IMG/VR virus record: IMGVR_UViG_3300045049_000168
Coordinates: 1-43,324 of that record
Strand: one strand, 5' to 3'
From: a virus
Length of the DNA stretch: 43,324 nucleotides
The stretch's first letter is position 1, and the number at the start of each line of letters is the position of its first letter. Below are positions 26,379-35,966 of this stretch, in pieces. Below the pieces are notes generated by a model that saw only the letters and a program-made list of their open reading frames with translations, did no database searches and was not told where the DNA came from. The position numbers and the translations under genes are program-made.

Positions 26379-26833
26379 CAGCTTTTACGGACGAATTTCG
26401 CGTATTGCTCGGCCGGGTCGGGCTTCTTCACGCTCACGCGCGATCGACTCGAAGGCGTCATGCCGAATTCGGCCAGCAGCTTAACCATCTGCGCGTGCGC
26501 TTTGTTGGCGATCGCGAGGAACGGCGATTGAATCGGAAAGCCCGAGGGCGCCTTGATGACGGCGCCGAACTTCACAATGTTGTCGTTCGCGTCTTTCCAG
26601 CGGGCGAATGCCTCGCAATACAGGGCCAACGCTGGCGCATCGATAACCGTCAGCAGGCCCGCGTCGTTTAGCTGCTTGGCAACCTCGGGCCATTGCGCTT
26701 TCGCCGCGTCGCTCATCCAATCGGGCATCTGTGCGCCGCTATCAGGCTGCGGCTCATCCTCGTTTAGCGCGCGCTTTCCTGGGTTTCCGCGTATCAGCTT
26801 GAGCGCTGTCGGAGTTGGTTTGCGTCCTGCCAT
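26378..26833 (-). CDS. terS: terminase small subunit, P27 family
   Basis: The product is 151 residues. It begins with MAGRKPTPTALKLIRGNPGK, the P27-type start, followed by WMSDAAKAQWPEVAKQL and ALALYCEAFARWKDAN. The family recognises the packaging site and regulates TerL. The ATG at 26833 matches the conserved N-terminus and has GAGGT upstream; a start 6 codons earlier is possible. The first 80 bp overlap the 3' end of the methylase gene in another frame, which is long for a phage overlap. Confidence 0.93.
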   Translation of the reverse strand: MAGRKPTPTALKLIRGNPGKRALNEDEPQPDSGAQMPDWMSDAAKAQWPEVAKQLNDAGLLTVIDAPALALYCEAFARWKDANDNIVKFGAVIKAPSGFPIQSPFLAIANKAHAQMVKLLAEFGMTPSSRSRVSVKKPDPAEQYAKFVRKS

Positions 26834-28091
26834 GTTGTGATACCTCGTCAAACGTGCGGCCGTCGCCTTCCAGCGTCGCCGTCTTGCCCGTGAATGCTTG
26901 CCATCGCTTCACGGCGACATCGACATACGCTGGGTTCAACTCGACCGCGTGGCAGGCGCGGCCGGTCATTTCGGCGGCGATGATGGTCGTGCCCGAACCG
27001 GAGAACGGCTCGTAGATGGCCTGCCCCGGCGACGAGTTGTTTTCGATCGGCCGGCGCATGCATTCGACGGGCTTTTGCGTGCTGTGGCCGGTTTCCGACT
27101 TCTGAGGCTTGTCGATTTGCCAGAGCGTCGATTGCTTGCGGTCGCCGCTCCAATGTCCCACGCCGCCCTTGCGCACGGCGTACCAGCATGGCTCGTGCTG
27201 CCAGTGGTAGTGGCCGCGACCGATCGCGAACTGCTGTTTCGCCCAGATCAGTTGGCACCGAATTTCAAAGCCGCATGCTTCGAGCGATGCCTGGACGGCG
27301 CTCGCGTGTCGGCCGGCATGCCACACGTAGGCCACATCGCCAGGGAAAAGCGCCCATGCCTCGCGCCAATCGGCGCGGTCGTCATTCAGAACCTTCCCAA
27401 TGGCACCAGCGCCGATGGCTCGATTGCCCATGCCCGAGCATGTGCGCGCAGCTTCGTTGCGCCAGTTGGCGTCATACTCGACGCCATAAGGGGGGTCAGT
27501 AACCATCAGGTGCGGCACGGTGCCGTTGAGCGCCTTCTCTACGGTCAACCCATCGGTCGCGTCGCCGCAAGCCAGCCTATGCCCGCCTAGCCGCCAGACG
27601 TCGCCTGATTGCGTGACGGGCTCGGCCGGCGTTTCCGGCACTTCGTCGGGATCGGTGAGCCCGGTCGTGCGCACGGCCAGCAGATCGGCAAGCTCTCCGT
27701 CCTGAAACCCGAGCAGCGCGAGGTCGTATCCCATACCGCTCAGGTCGCCGATCTCGATGCGCAGCATCTCGGCATCCCATGCGGCGTGCTCGGGGAGCTT
27801 GTTATCGGCGATCCGGTATGCACGCTTTTGCGCTTCGCTCCATCCGGCCGCGATCATGATTGGCGCCTCGGTCCATTGCAGCAGGCCAGCGGCCAGCACG
27901 CGCCCATGGCCGGCGATGATCGTGCCTTCCTCGTCGACCAGCACGGGATTCGTCCATCCCCACTCGCGCATCGACGCGGCGATCTCGGCGACCTGGGCCG
28001 GCGAATGCGTGCGCGTGTTGCGCGCGTAGGGGATCAGCCGCTCGAGAGGCCAGCGCTCGACGCGATCAGCCGGCCAGACTGGCGTCGTCAC
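26754..28091 (-). CDS. ParB-like / DNA N6-adenine (beta-class) methyltransferase
   Basis: The product is 445 residues from a GTG start at 28091 (GGGGG about 8 nt upstream). Residues about 10-130 are a ParB/Srx-like nuclease-fold domain (IPYARNTRTHSPAQVAEIAASM, then IIAGHGRVLAA). The methylase follows: DPPY at 199-202 (motif IV) and FSGSG at 363-367 (motif I), giving the beta-class order IV before I. It modifies adenine (or N4-cytosine) in an unknown sequence, probably protecting phage DNA or marking the packaging region. The C-terminus is basic. Position between HNH and TerS is notable. Confidence 0.93.
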   Translation of the reverse strand: MTTPVWPADRVERWPLERLIPYARNTRTHSPAQVAEIAASMREWGWTNPVLVDEEGTIIAGHGRVLAAGLLQWTEAPIMIAAGWSEAQKRAYRIADNKLPEHAAWDAEMLRIEIGDLSGMGYDLALLGFQDGELADLLAVRTTGLTDPDEVPETPAEPVTQSGDVWRLGGHRLACGDATDGLTVEKALNGTVPHLMVTDPPYGVEYDANWRNEAARTCSGMGNRAIGAGAIGKVLNDDRADWREAWALFPGDVAYVWHAGRHASAVQASLEACGFEIRCQLIWAKQQFAIGRGHYHWQHEPCWYAVRKGGVGHWSGDRKQSTLWQIDKPQKSETGHSTQKPVECMRRPIENNSSPGQAIYEPFSGSGTTIIAAEMTGRACHAVELNPAYVDVAVKRWQAFTGKTATLEGDGRTFDEVSQHGRTQTNSDSAQADTRKPRKARAKRG

Positions 28092-28324
28092 GTTTTGACC
28101 CCCTGTTTCATTTCGCGGCGGCAAAAATTCGACCCCGGCCGCGGTCGCGGCGGGTTTTCCCGTAGAGATTCGGCCCCCCATAGCCGCCCGGCAACGCCCC
28201 GCCGAGGCCCGGCGCCGGCCGCCTGACGGGCTCGCGCGCCGTCGCTCGTGCTCGCGTGTTCCCCGAAGCGCCGGCCCGTTGTAGGCCGTTGTGCGGGCTC
28301 GTTCTGGTTTGTCCGCATGGCGGG
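28092..28324. other. gene-free region, candidate cos site
   Basis: About 230 bp of very GC-rich sequence lie between the HNH and methylase genes, with no open frame I can support. In HK97-like phages with an HNH protein the cohesive end lies between the HNH gene and the terminase genes, so this region is the likely cos. The cut position cannot be read from sequence alone. Confidence 0.4.
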
Positions 28325-28735
28325 CTATTTGCTTGGGCGCGCGTGGGGCGGACGCGGGGCGGGGAGGTTCCCGAACCCGCCGTTTTCGCGCGCGGTCTTC
28401 CGGTCGTGGCACGGTTTCGACATCGCCTGCCAGTTCGATCGATCCCAGAACAGAGCCATATCGCCGCGGTGCGGGATGATGTGGTCGACGACCGAGGCGG
28501 GCATTATGCGACCGACCGCCCGGCATTCAGCGCACTCGCAAAGGGGATGCAAACGAAGAAAGTGCTCGCGAGCCTTGCGCCATTGCCACGTGTACCCGCG
28601 CGCGTTCGCGTTCTCCCGTTTCGCATCGGTGCAGCGTCGGGCGCCGGCAAGATGCGCGGGACAAAGGCCGTGCTTCTCGCGCACGAGCGCGCCGCATCCG
28701 GGTTGCCGACACGGGCGCAACGGATGCGCGGGCAT
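28325..28735 (-). CDS. HNH endonuclease (packaging-associated)
   Basis: The product is 136 residues. The HNH core is Asp84-His85 in VVDHIIPH, Asn101 in RSNWQAM and His110 in KPCHDRKT. Cysteines at 9, 14, 25 and again at 66-71 and 109 probably bind zinc. In HK97 and relatives such a protein (gp74) is needed with TerL to cut cos. It lies a few bases from the 82-residue gene upstream. Length is normal. Confidence 0.92.
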   Translation of the reverse strand: MPAHPLRPCRQPGCGALVREKHGLCPAHLAGARRCTDAKRENANARGYTWQWRKAREHFLRLHPLCECAECRAVGRIMPASVVDHIIPHRGDMALFWDRSNWQAMSKPCHDRKTARENGGFGNLPAPRPPHARPSK

Positions 28736-32927: not shown

Positions 32928-33242
32928 TCAGCGCGTCCGTTGATGGTGTAGGTAGCGATGCACGTCCTCGCGCTTCTCGACTTCGTGCACCGAACATGCA
33001 ATGCGGCGAATGTCGCCTGCATCGAACATCATCGAGGCCGCTACGTACACGTGTGCGACTTCCCTTTCGAGCCAATCGCGGTTTGTCGGCCCCTTCGGCG
33101 TGAGCGGGTTTGTGCCTTCGTAGCCGTGGCGAAGCACCTTGCCGATGGCGTGGATCGCTTGGCCCATTTGCTCAGCGAGTAGTGCAAGGCGCTCCGCTTC
33201 GGCTTCGGTCAGCCGGTTGAAGTGGTGCGTTTCGACGATCAT
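32928..33242 (-). CDS. MazG-like / NTP-pyrophosphohydrolase-like phage protein
   Basis: The product is 104 residues with helices LALLAEQMGQAIHAIGKVLRHGYE and NRDWLEREVAHVYVAASM, the all-alpha pattern of MazG-like proteins. The usual EExxE acids are only partly kept (the first helix has Gln where Glu is expected), so catalytic activity is doubtful. It overlaps the upstream gene by 4 nt. An alternative is a structural relative without enzymatic role. Confidence 0.55.
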   Translation of the reverse strand: MIVETHHFNRLTEAEAERLALLAEQMGQAIHAIGKVLRHGYEGTNPLTPKGPTNRDWLEREVAHVYVAASMMFDAGDIRRIACSVHEVEKREDVHRYLHHQRTR

Positions 33243-33835
33243 CGTTTCGCCCCCTCGATGCGCTTGACGTTCACGCCGATGCGTGCAAGCAAACGGGCAT
33301 CGACTTCGGTATTCGCGATATCGGGCAGCAGCGCCATCGCGTGTTCACGCGACAGGCGGCCCTTTTCGATGGCATCGGTAATCGCCGCGGCACGCATGGC
33401 CGGATCGCTGCCAGGCGAGAGGCGCCATTGCGCCGGGCGCCGCTCACACCGCGCGAGCGTGACGACCCGCGCGTAGCACTCGCGAAACGCGACCCGGGCC
33501 GCGATCGCATCGCCGGCCGTGAGCAGGGGCAACGCAACGCCCCATGCGACAGCCATTTCGTCGGTCCAGACGACCGACTGCGACTCGTCGCGCGGCATCA
33601 TCGCCCACGCTTCATCGGGGCCGGGCCGACCGTCGTCAAGCCGCGAAATCACGTCGGCGAGCGTGAGCGCGCCTTTGACCTCGCGCCGGCAACGGTCAAG
33701 CGCGCCGAGCACTTGCGATTCGGGGTACGGCGACAGGTCGGCCGCGAACTGGCGCGCGGCAACGGGCGAGAACACGCGCCCGCACAGTTCGGCCGTCACG
33801 GCGATGGCTTCCAGCACTCGGCTAGTCGTGCCCAC
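33239..33835 (-). CDS. putative replication accessory protein (lambda P-like position)
   Basis: The product is 198 residues, all-helical, from a GTG start at 33835 with GAGG 6 nt upstream. It begins VLEAIAVTAELCGRVFSPVAARQF and contains LSPYPESQVLGALDRCRREVKGALTLADVISRL, a pattern common in proteins that follow phage initiators and are thought to load the host helicase. It overlaps the initiator stop by 14 nt. No ATPase motif is seen, consistent with a lambda P-type loader rather than a DnaC type. Confidence 0.6.
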   Translation of the reverse strand: MGTTSRVLEAIAVTAELCGRVFSPVAARQFAADLSPYPESQVLGALDRCRREVKGALTLADVISRLDDGRPGPDEAWAMMPRDESQSVVWTDEMAVAWGVALPLLTAGDAIAARVAFRECYARVVTLARCERRPAQWRLSPGSDPAMRAAAITDAIEKGRLSREHAMALLPDIANTEVDARLLARIGVNVKRIEGAKR

Positions 33836-35276
33836 GTTGCGCCTCGTTGCGTTCGCGCTCGCGCGCTTCGGCGATGAGTGGGCCGAACGCATTCGCGTTC
33901 GTGGCCGTCCGATCGGCCATTGCTGCTTCGGTGGCCGTCACGGGGCGATGCGTAGCCCATTGCGTATGCAACGACTCGGCGTCGGTCAAGAGCACGCCTA
34001 CCGCATGGCAGCGTTTCACGTAGAACGCGCTCGAGCATGACGCGACGTAGAACCGCGCCACTTCAGGCGCGTCGGCCGCGCCGATGCGTTCGACGAAGTG
34101 GAGCATTTGCGCGTTCACCGTGGCGTTCCGCACGGGTTCGACGCCGTATCGCGCGACAAATGCGGTCGCGTACGCGTCCCAGGTCGGTCCCGTGTCTGGT
34201 CCGTGCACCTTATCCGGCGCGGCTTTCGAGGCTTTACGCCCGGGCTTCGCGTGGGGCATCGCGGGGGACATCGCCGAGGCATCATGCGACGACATGCCTC
34301 GCTCATGTACCCCCGGATGCCCCACGGAATCCTTATCCGACAAGGGTTTGCCGGCATCGAATTCGAGCAGATCGCGTTGCGTTTGCGGTTCTTCCGCGTG
34401 CTCGGTGAAGCGACGCACGCTGGCGAACTCGCTGCGAGCCTTGTCCGGCAAGGGTTCCGCGTCGGTTGGCCCGCTCTCACGCGCGCGCATACGCGTACAC
34501 GGGGGTAACGGCGCGGTAGCGCCGTTAACGCCTTTGACGTTGGGGTTGTTTTTATATCTCCTATCTAATATCTGTGAGGGGTCATGTGTCGGGGATGTAT
34601 CAGTCGATGCTTCTGCGATGTTCGGGGCGATGCCTCGCTGATGTTCGGGTCGATGTTCGCGTTTAGCTTCGCTCATGTTGGGGCTCATGTCTCGCTGATG
34701 TATGGCCTTATGCCTCGGCGATGCCCCCCCTTCATTTTTGCTTTCCTTGACCTTTTTGGGATTCTGTCCGGAGCCAAGCTGGACGGGCCTGATAGCCGCA
34801 TCGAACGCTCTGGAAAACGCCTCACCTTGGGCATTCACCGCCGACCGAATCGCACGAAAAATTCTGCGCTTCAGATTGCAGTCCGGGATCAAGTCCCATC
34901 CCGAACGCCACCCGACTACGTTGTTCGGGGCACGCGGCATCGCTCGTTTGAGCACGTTGGGCAGCCACAGAATTTGATGGTCCCAATCGGCTTCGGCCAT
35001 GCGTAAACCAGAAATCTCACGAAAGCATGCGTCGAAGTCGTCGAGCGACCATCCGAGCGCGTCGGCCAGACCGGCGCGGCTGACCCGGTAGACCCCAGGC
35101 ACCATGCGGGGTTGCAGGGTGTGCGGCCCGGAAAACAGGTAGATGAACAGGAACTGTGCGCTCGGTTGTGCGCGCGAGAGCTTGACGAACTTTTCGTCGG
35201 CCCAAATGCGCATCTCGATCATCTTGAACGGCACCCGCGCGCCTGCGCGTTCGTCGATATTCGCCTTCGCGATCAT
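33822..35276 (-). CDS. replication initiator (lambda O-like), origin within gene
   Basis: The product is 484 residues. An N-terminal winged-helix region (about 15-150, FKMIEMRIWADEKFVKLSRAQPSAQFLFIYL and MVPGVYRVSRAGLADALGWS) probably binds the origin. A long polar linker (about 165-330) is encoded by repeated DNA, the candidate origin. The C-terminal domain (GPTWDAYATAFVARYGVEPVRNATVNAQ and beyond) probably contacts the helicase loader. This is the layout of lambda O. The ATG at 35276 has GGAG 8 nt upstream. It follows the Cro-like gene by 22 bp. Confidence 0.82.
   Translation of the reverse strand: MIAKANIDERAGARVPFKMIEMRIWADEKFVKLSRAQPSAQFLFIYLFSGPHTLQPRMVPGVYRVSRAGLADALGWSLDDFDACFREISGLRMAEADWDHQILWLPNVLKRAMPRAPNNVVGWRSGWDLIPDCNLKRRIFRAIRSAVNAQGEAFSRAFDAAIRPVQLGSGQNPKKVKESKNEGGASPRHKAIHQRDMSPNMSEAKREHRPEHQRGIAPNIAEASTDTSPTHDPSQILDRRYKNNPNVKGVNGATAPLPPCTRMRARESGPTDAEPLPDKARSEFASVRRFTEHAEEPQTQRDLLEFDAGKPLSDKDSVGHPGVHERGMSSHDASAMSPAMPHAKPGRKASKAAPDKVHGPDTGPTWDAYATAFVARYGVEPVRNATVNAQMLHFVERIGAADAPEVARFYVASCSSAFYVKRCHAVGVLLTDAESLHTQWATHRPVTATEAAMADRTATNANAFGPLIAEARERERNEAQRGHD
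34268..34308. repeat. inverted pair of iteron-like sites
   Basis: acatcgccgaggcat (34268-34282) and atgcctcgctcatgt (34294-34308) form an imperfect inverted repeat; both match the iteron unit of the main array. They lie 200 bp from the palindrome on the side away from the array. Confidence 0.5.
34506..34575. other. palindrome and AT-rich region of candidate origin
   Basis: A perfect inverted repeat taacggcgc-ggta-gcgccgtta lies at 34506-34527. Next to it 34545-34575 is strikingly AT-rich (tttttatatctcctatctaatat) inside a GC-rich gene. Together with the iterons beyond it this repeats the order of lambda ori: iterons, AT-rich stretch, palindrome. Confidence 0.65.
34582..34730. repeat. iteron array, candidate replication origin
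   Basis: About six tandem units of 23 bp, each with two half-sites carrying ATG. ATG (or near) positions are 34584, 34595, 34607, 34618, 34630, 34641, 34653, 34664 (TAG), 34675, 34687, 34698, 34710 and 34721, that is every 11-12 bp. A typical unit reads cgatgcctcgctgatgttcgggt (34628-34650). Because 23 is not a multiple of three, the repetition serves DNA, not the protein. It should be bound by the initiator encoded by the same gene. Confidence 0.7.
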
Positions 35277-35586: not shown

Positions 35587-35966
35587 GAGAAACGATTAAA
35601 GTCGCGTTGTCGAAAAATTCAAGGAAGACATATTATTGACATCCGTGGTTCCGTCGTCTTGAATTCCGTCCATTCCTTAATTGATCAAGCCGTGGATGTT
35701 ATGCGAAAACTGCTTCGGCATCGACCTTACCTTCGCTGTCTCTCCCGCCAGCAAAGGCGGTCATGGTTCGAACAGTGGCGGCGGTCGGCGCCCCGTGTTG
35801 TAATCGGGTGCGCATATATACCGATGAAAGTCGCACGTAGTTTTACATATGTGAATTTCTCATGGCTGTATTTTTGATGCAATGTCGTGCGATGAGCCGC
35901 GTAATTCCGACTATTGTCGGAATTCGTAAATTTACAAATGTGAAAAACTGAAGCAATTCGTTGACC
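35587..35966. promoter_or_regulatory. genetic switch region with operators and promoter
   Basis: A 380-bp AT-richer region without a convincing gene. A plus-strand promoter candidate is TTGACA (35636-35641) and TTGAAT (35659-35664), spacing 17, flanked by AATTCAAG (35616-35623) and CTTGAATT (35658-35665). A palindrome AATTCCGAC-TATT-GTCGGAATT lies at 35903-35924. The operator-like repeats TTTACATATGTGAATTTCT (35842-35860) and TTTACAAATGTGAAAAACT (35931-35949) lie nearer the exonuclease gene. Transcription to both sides probably starts here. Confidence 0.55.

Follow-up and report, generated by a model that had tools for sequence, protein, structure and literature searches.

A putative theta-type replication origin built of direct half-sites within a phage initiator gene

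A row of tandem repeats lies inside a putative replication initiator gene at about 34.5 kb of a viral genome (IMG/VR record IMGVR_UViG_3300045049_000168), which raises the question of what these repeats do. We analyzed the whole stretch of 43,324 nucleotides, hereafter called the window; the coordinates of the relevant features are collected in Table 1. From sequence comparison, we consider it probable (about 0.82) that the element is a phage theta-type origin located in its own initiator gene, which would be bound at its half-sites, opened and assisted by a loader in the manner proposed below.

Table 1. Features of the putative origin locus in the window.
Feature	Coordinates	Strand	Remarks
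Initiator gene	33822..35276	-	484 aa, ATG at 35276
N-terminal winged-helix domain, presumed iteron-binding	34782..35228	-	residues ~17-165
Main iteron array	34583..34732	-	13 half-sites, 11/12-bp steps alternating
AT-rich putative unwinding element	34546..34574	-	29 nt, 24% GC by count
Conserved block with 9-bp-arm palindrome (34506-34527)	34485..34541	-	codon identity in relatives
Second array	34250..34326	.	inverted repeat, 33-nt arms; missed by the initial annotation
C-terminal domain	33867..34199	-	residues ~360-470, PHROG 11527 / O-like 391
Downstream gene, PHROG 6028	33239..33892	-	candidate helicase loader, P analogue

A PHROG search matched the initiator gene to O-like and DnaD-like helicase-loader/initiator families. 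Two close relatives of the initiator were found, L002 (64% identical) and L003 (66% identical); a distant DNA search of the phage collection with the initiator gene gave zero matches, and a first scan of genome contigs with A1 returned no relatives. The AlphaFold model of the N-domain had a pLDDT of 82, and its top viral fold match was a 'replisome organizer' (E 4e-9); comparison with PDB folds gave weak matches of the CRP-type winged-helix class, and a PDB sequence search with the N-domain and the downstream protein revealed nothing meaningful. The N-domain was 69% identical to that of L002 and 36-46% identical to those of phage initiators bearing 12-bp in-gene repeats. In a Pfam scan of the initiator, the Rep family was absent and no plasmid Rep profile was matched. 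Elsewhere in the window, positions 26754-28526 of the minus strand encode a 590-aa protein in which a ParB-like domain is fused to a DNA methyltransferase (PHROG 620, 498).

The autocorrelation maximum of the 43-kb window was found at period 23 (54/92 matches at position 34603), as compared with a maximum of 50 in the 60 second-order Markov simulations that served as the null. The main array is made up of six 23-bp units, one of which is 22 bp long, and one half-site. The trinucleotide ATG on the plus strand (CAT on the coding strand) was present at 34584, 34595, 34607, 34618, 34630, 34641 and 34653 in the first part of the array and at 34675, 34687, 34698, 34710 and 34721 in the second part; between the two parts, the half-site at 34664 is degenerate (TAG). 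ATG is kept at 12/13 half-site steps, with one extra, off-register ATG at 34702. The intervals are 11 and 12 bp by turns, and the single 1-bp loss coincides with the degenerate half-site. The longest run of ATG at this spacing comprised seven in the window and at most four in the simulations. The initial annotation had described six 23-bp repeats with two ATG half-sites each, at 34506-34730; the periodicity was borne out, except that one half-site lacks its ATG, and the second array falls outside that interval.

Such a periodicity could also arise from repetition at the protein level or from a low-complexity linker. The linker is poorly conserved, and the DNA repeats of relatives encode KPSxKPSx peptide repeats, as this explanation would predict. 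However, the half-sites of the main array occupy all three codon phases and the peptide encoded across it is not repetitive, so the array is out of step with the codons. Directly after the N-domain, most relatives sharing this domain carry abutting 12-bp direct repeats in codon phase (AAGSCTTYC+NNN; KAFDKAFGKPSPKPSPK), and in most of these (CAGGAA)n comes next. When a fixed motif and exact 12-bp steps were used for counting, at least three abutting exact units were present in 17 of 28 nonredundant genes with the same N-domain. Inside the relatives' arrays, 112/149 Pro and Ala codons ended in T versus 186/1205 elsewhere (odds ratio about 17, p ~ 3e-50); the count was pooled over related sequences, so the p-value overstates independence, while the effect is large. 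P exchanges with A and S with F in the encoded peptide, yet the silent third base remains T; selection thus acts on DNA, as the initial annotation had concluded from the codon phase. A protein-level cause of the 23-bp periodicity was rejected as largely refuted by the codon phase and the fixed third bases, and we regard it as extremely unlikely. In the initiator linkers of L093-L119 and L155, codon-phase tandem 12-bp iterons with the third base frozen as T were followed by (CAGGAA)n, which encodes QEQEQE peptides. The Citrobacter phage Chris1 'protein O', the pPE4 'primosomal protein' and IMG/VR relatives have the same N-domain and an array at the same position, with CAG-led repeats after it in many; their 12-bp units are in codon phase and differ in sequence from that of the window. 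The C-domain of Chris1 and pPE4 is DnaT-like, unlike that of the window.

The 12-bp units of these relatives indicate that the half-site is the natural unit in the N-domain family, and the window's phage has an 11/12 alternation in place of the relatives' 12-bp step. An alignment to related phages, which had been suggested earlier as a check, revealed that L002 and L003 retain the place of the array, its 22-23-bp period, the AT-rich element and the palindrome. In both, CAT recurs every 22-23 bp and the iteron appears partly palindromic (core GGTCSGACC); half-site alternation was not seen, and the binding of a single subunit to each half-site may therefore not apply to the whole family. These relatives keep alive a model in which the iteron is one dimer-bound 23-bp site, direct or pseudo-palindromic, with an incidental half-site rhythm in what would still be an in-gene origin, and several C-domain relatives with 22-23-bp units lacking halves are consistent with it. 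The regular ATG steps of the window, the coincidence of its lone missing base with its lone degenerate half-site, and the 12-bp units of the N-domain relatives all count against this model, which we regard as possible but not likely.

The initial annotation had further inferred from the near-helical spacing that the half-sites would all face the same side of the DNA. At 10.5 bp/turn, the 13 half-sites had a mean resultant of 0.12, being spread round the whole helix, and their phase drifted by about one full turn over the main array; a common face would require a helical repeat close to 11.5 bp (mean resultant 0.98). Because 11/12-bp steps spiral round the helix at 10.5 bp/turn, the one-face arrangement was rejected. 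A bound protein would either follow a superhelical path or under-twist the DNA, and under-twisting, if true, would couple binding to melting.

On the coding strand, the repeats are followed by the AT-rich stretch and then by the palindrome; the recognition of a lambda ori order inside an O-like/DnaD-like initiator gene is in agreement with the sequence comparison. The coding strand of the AT-rich element is purine-rich and carries the heptamers CAGATAT-TAGATAG-GAGATAT, and similar heptamers were found in L002 and the Actinobacillus phage pPE4. The AT-richness is only moderate, as the wider 42 nt around the core are 38% GC and fall outside the window's most AT-rich stretches. The palindrome, TAACGGCGC-GGTA-GCGCCGTTA, has perfect 9-bp arms, and the window contains palindromes of this kind at three sites. 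In the palindrome block, 14/15 and 15/16 codons were identical in the comparisons with L002 and L003, against 65-70% gene-wide (p about 0.01-0.02 each, the two tests being non-independent), and the 21-nt core around the palindrome has the same letters in all three phages. A separate region at 35838-35950, with 27.5% GC over 40 nt, ranks among the most AT-rich in the window and contains another perfect 9-bp-arm palindrome at 35903; it is possibly an early promoter or operator region.

The second array lies about 270 bp downstream of the main array. Its arms are 82% complementary, are separated by an 11-nt loop and face each other, each with three half-sites at 11/12-bp spacing. The corresponding 77-nt hairpin had a z of -7.7 versus shuffles, and the same segment gave -2.1 in L002 and 0 in L003; since the hairpin is weak in the former and absent in the latter, a role in mRNA structure is less likely than one as an initiator site. 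At the place of the second array, L002 and L003 each carry their own type of iteron in inverted form. Their iteron sequence differs from that of the window, and both arrays change together; the window lacks the L002 iteron, and matches to its own iteron in L002 do not exceed chance level. Because each phage writes both arrays in its own iteron sequence, the most plausible reading is that both serve as sites for one initiator. Also inside the initiator gene, a 21-nt inverted repeat (81%) around CCTTGTCCGRCAAGG occupies 34325-34345 and 34439-34459, and two direct 18-nt copies are also present, 108 bp apart.

The inverted second array resembles an operator or handcuffing site more than an origin, and repeated binding sites are able to serve regulation. 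The repeats might accordingly be operators for autoregulation or for phage partition, with replication starting elsewhere. The main array, however, lies in the gene, where an AT-rich stretch and the conserved palindrome follow it in the order of an origin, and this arrangement recurs across many phage initiator genes; we consider the operator or partition explanation very unlikely.

We found the C-domain paired with several unrelated N-parts among relatives. Most of the tested nonredundant C-domain genes have, within the gene and immediately before the part that encodes this domain, tandem repeats with units of 15 to 23 bp, for example the F116-like 22-bp repeat GGTCGGAAAAAAATCCGA; in most, the repeats exceeded all shuffles, with periods that include 17, 21, 22 and 23 bp. 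The initiator protein is thus modular, its N-domain and iterons being swapped together against a shared C-domain. In nearly all related loci, the PHROG 6028 gene is directly downstream of the C-domain, and the window has the same arrangement of C-domain, in-gene tandem repeats and PHROG 6028 gene that defines the initiators with a PHROG 11527 C-domain. The predicted fold of the downstream protein is weakly like those of replisome organizers, the G39P N-terminal part and replication P proteins, which makes it a reasonable candidate for a helicase loader.

Many of the origins have CAG-led repeats on the coding strand after the iterons: (CAGGAA)n, CAGAGANTACNA, CAGGTAACCAGTAAT and CAGATAA. Strand-specific repeats of this type were observed just upstream of the C-domain in L020, L055, L185, L203, L184 and others. 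The linkers were strand-biased, with CAG chains in 23/70 and CTG chains in 8/70, compared with 15 and 11 of 71 for the control region; the enrichment is clear by eye in many DUEs and statistically not strong. CAG chains are absent in the window, where a single CAG heptamer precedes a TAG and a GAG heptamer. Primases of E. coli, P. aeruginosa and Y. pestis prime efficiently at the complement, CTG (PMC5204125). CAG-led repeats may mark primer sites, their complement being the start trinucleotide of gammaproteobacterial primases; given the modest statistics and the single CAG in the window, we offer this as a suggestion only.

From the arrays, their conservation at the DNA level, the co-variation of the two arrays, the modularity and the linkage to the next gene, all of which can be read in the sequences, we infer how binding, its stoichiometry, melting, loading and origin activity might proceed. 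The N-terminal winged-helix domain would bind the head-to-tail row of about 13 half-sites 11-12 bp apart, with one subunit on each, and oligomerization of the initiator along the row would strain and open the adjoining AT-rich element. The C-domain and the P/G39P-like product of the next gene would then recruit the host replicative helicase. The same initiator would bind the inverted second array, whose probable role is looping, handcuffing or loading in the opposite direction. A more far-reaching version, which we regard as rather unlikely, is that the initiators form a continuous head-to-tail filament on the abutting 11-12-bp half-sites and, to keep every subunit on one face, under-twist the DNA to about 11.5-12 bp/turn; the twist strain beside the strand-specific CAG-led repeat would then open the origin and set the first primer sites in advance.

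To place the element among known systems, we compared it with the origins of lambda, SPP1 and iteron plasmids. The four iterons of lambda ori are inverted repeats of 18-19 bp, spaced 20-24 bp apart and bound by O dimers; they lie inside gene O together with a 40-bp AT-rich region (PMC5043065). As in lambda, the putative origin lies between the N- and C-terminal parts of the initiator gene, the iterons are followed by a purine-asymmetric AT-rich stretch and a palindrome, and the loader gene, a candidate here, comes next. Unlike the inverted lambda iterons, the half-sites of the window are direct and 11-12 bp apart, and the downstream protein belongs to PHROG 6028 rather than PHROG 109. Neither the N-domain nor the C-domain aligned to lambda O in profile comparison. 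TIGR01610, the O N-terminal domain, was matched by lambda O and not by the initiator; the two proteins share a PHROG 391 match in their C-terminal parts, which is a weak bridge. Direct homology to lambda O was rejected on the profile comparison, the C-terminal bridge apart. The earlier designation as a lambda-type origin is supported for place and order and not for kinship; by analogy, the element would work like a lambda or SPP1 origin, while membership of the lambda O family is not supported by sequence.

SPP1 oriL (G38P-G39P) has direct repeats and an AT-rich DUE in the initiator gene and uses a dedicated helicase loader, and another origin region, at a different place in the SPP1 genome, is bound as well (PMC6316719); direct-repeat in-gene origins are thus not new. 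Judged by that published description, the window differs in that its second array is inverted and only about 270 bp away. Iteron plasmids have direct-repeat iterons by an AT-rich DUE and a winged-helix initiator (PMC5043065, PMC10797057), and their iterons are generally helix-phased (PMC5043065). The window resembles the RK2, P1 and F plasmids in its direct repeats adjoining an AT-rich stretch and its predicted winged-helix initiator. Unlike in these plasmids, the half-sites lie on average 11.4-12 bp apart and their positions drift around the helix, and the array is inside the initiator gene. Across the phages compared, tandem one-turn direct repeats appear as a family trait, unlike the textbook lambda origin.

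According to a 2024 review, the lambda O-iteron structure is unsolved and there is no evidence of plasmid Rep filaments (PMC10797057). A phage family with abutting one-turn in-gene repeats lends itself to testing if an origin is melted by twist strain. The two natural iteron types of the window and L002, together with their closely related N-domains, constitute a natural pair for mapping the residues of iteron recognition, and the codon-level signature allows origins of this kind to be sought in unannotated phages.
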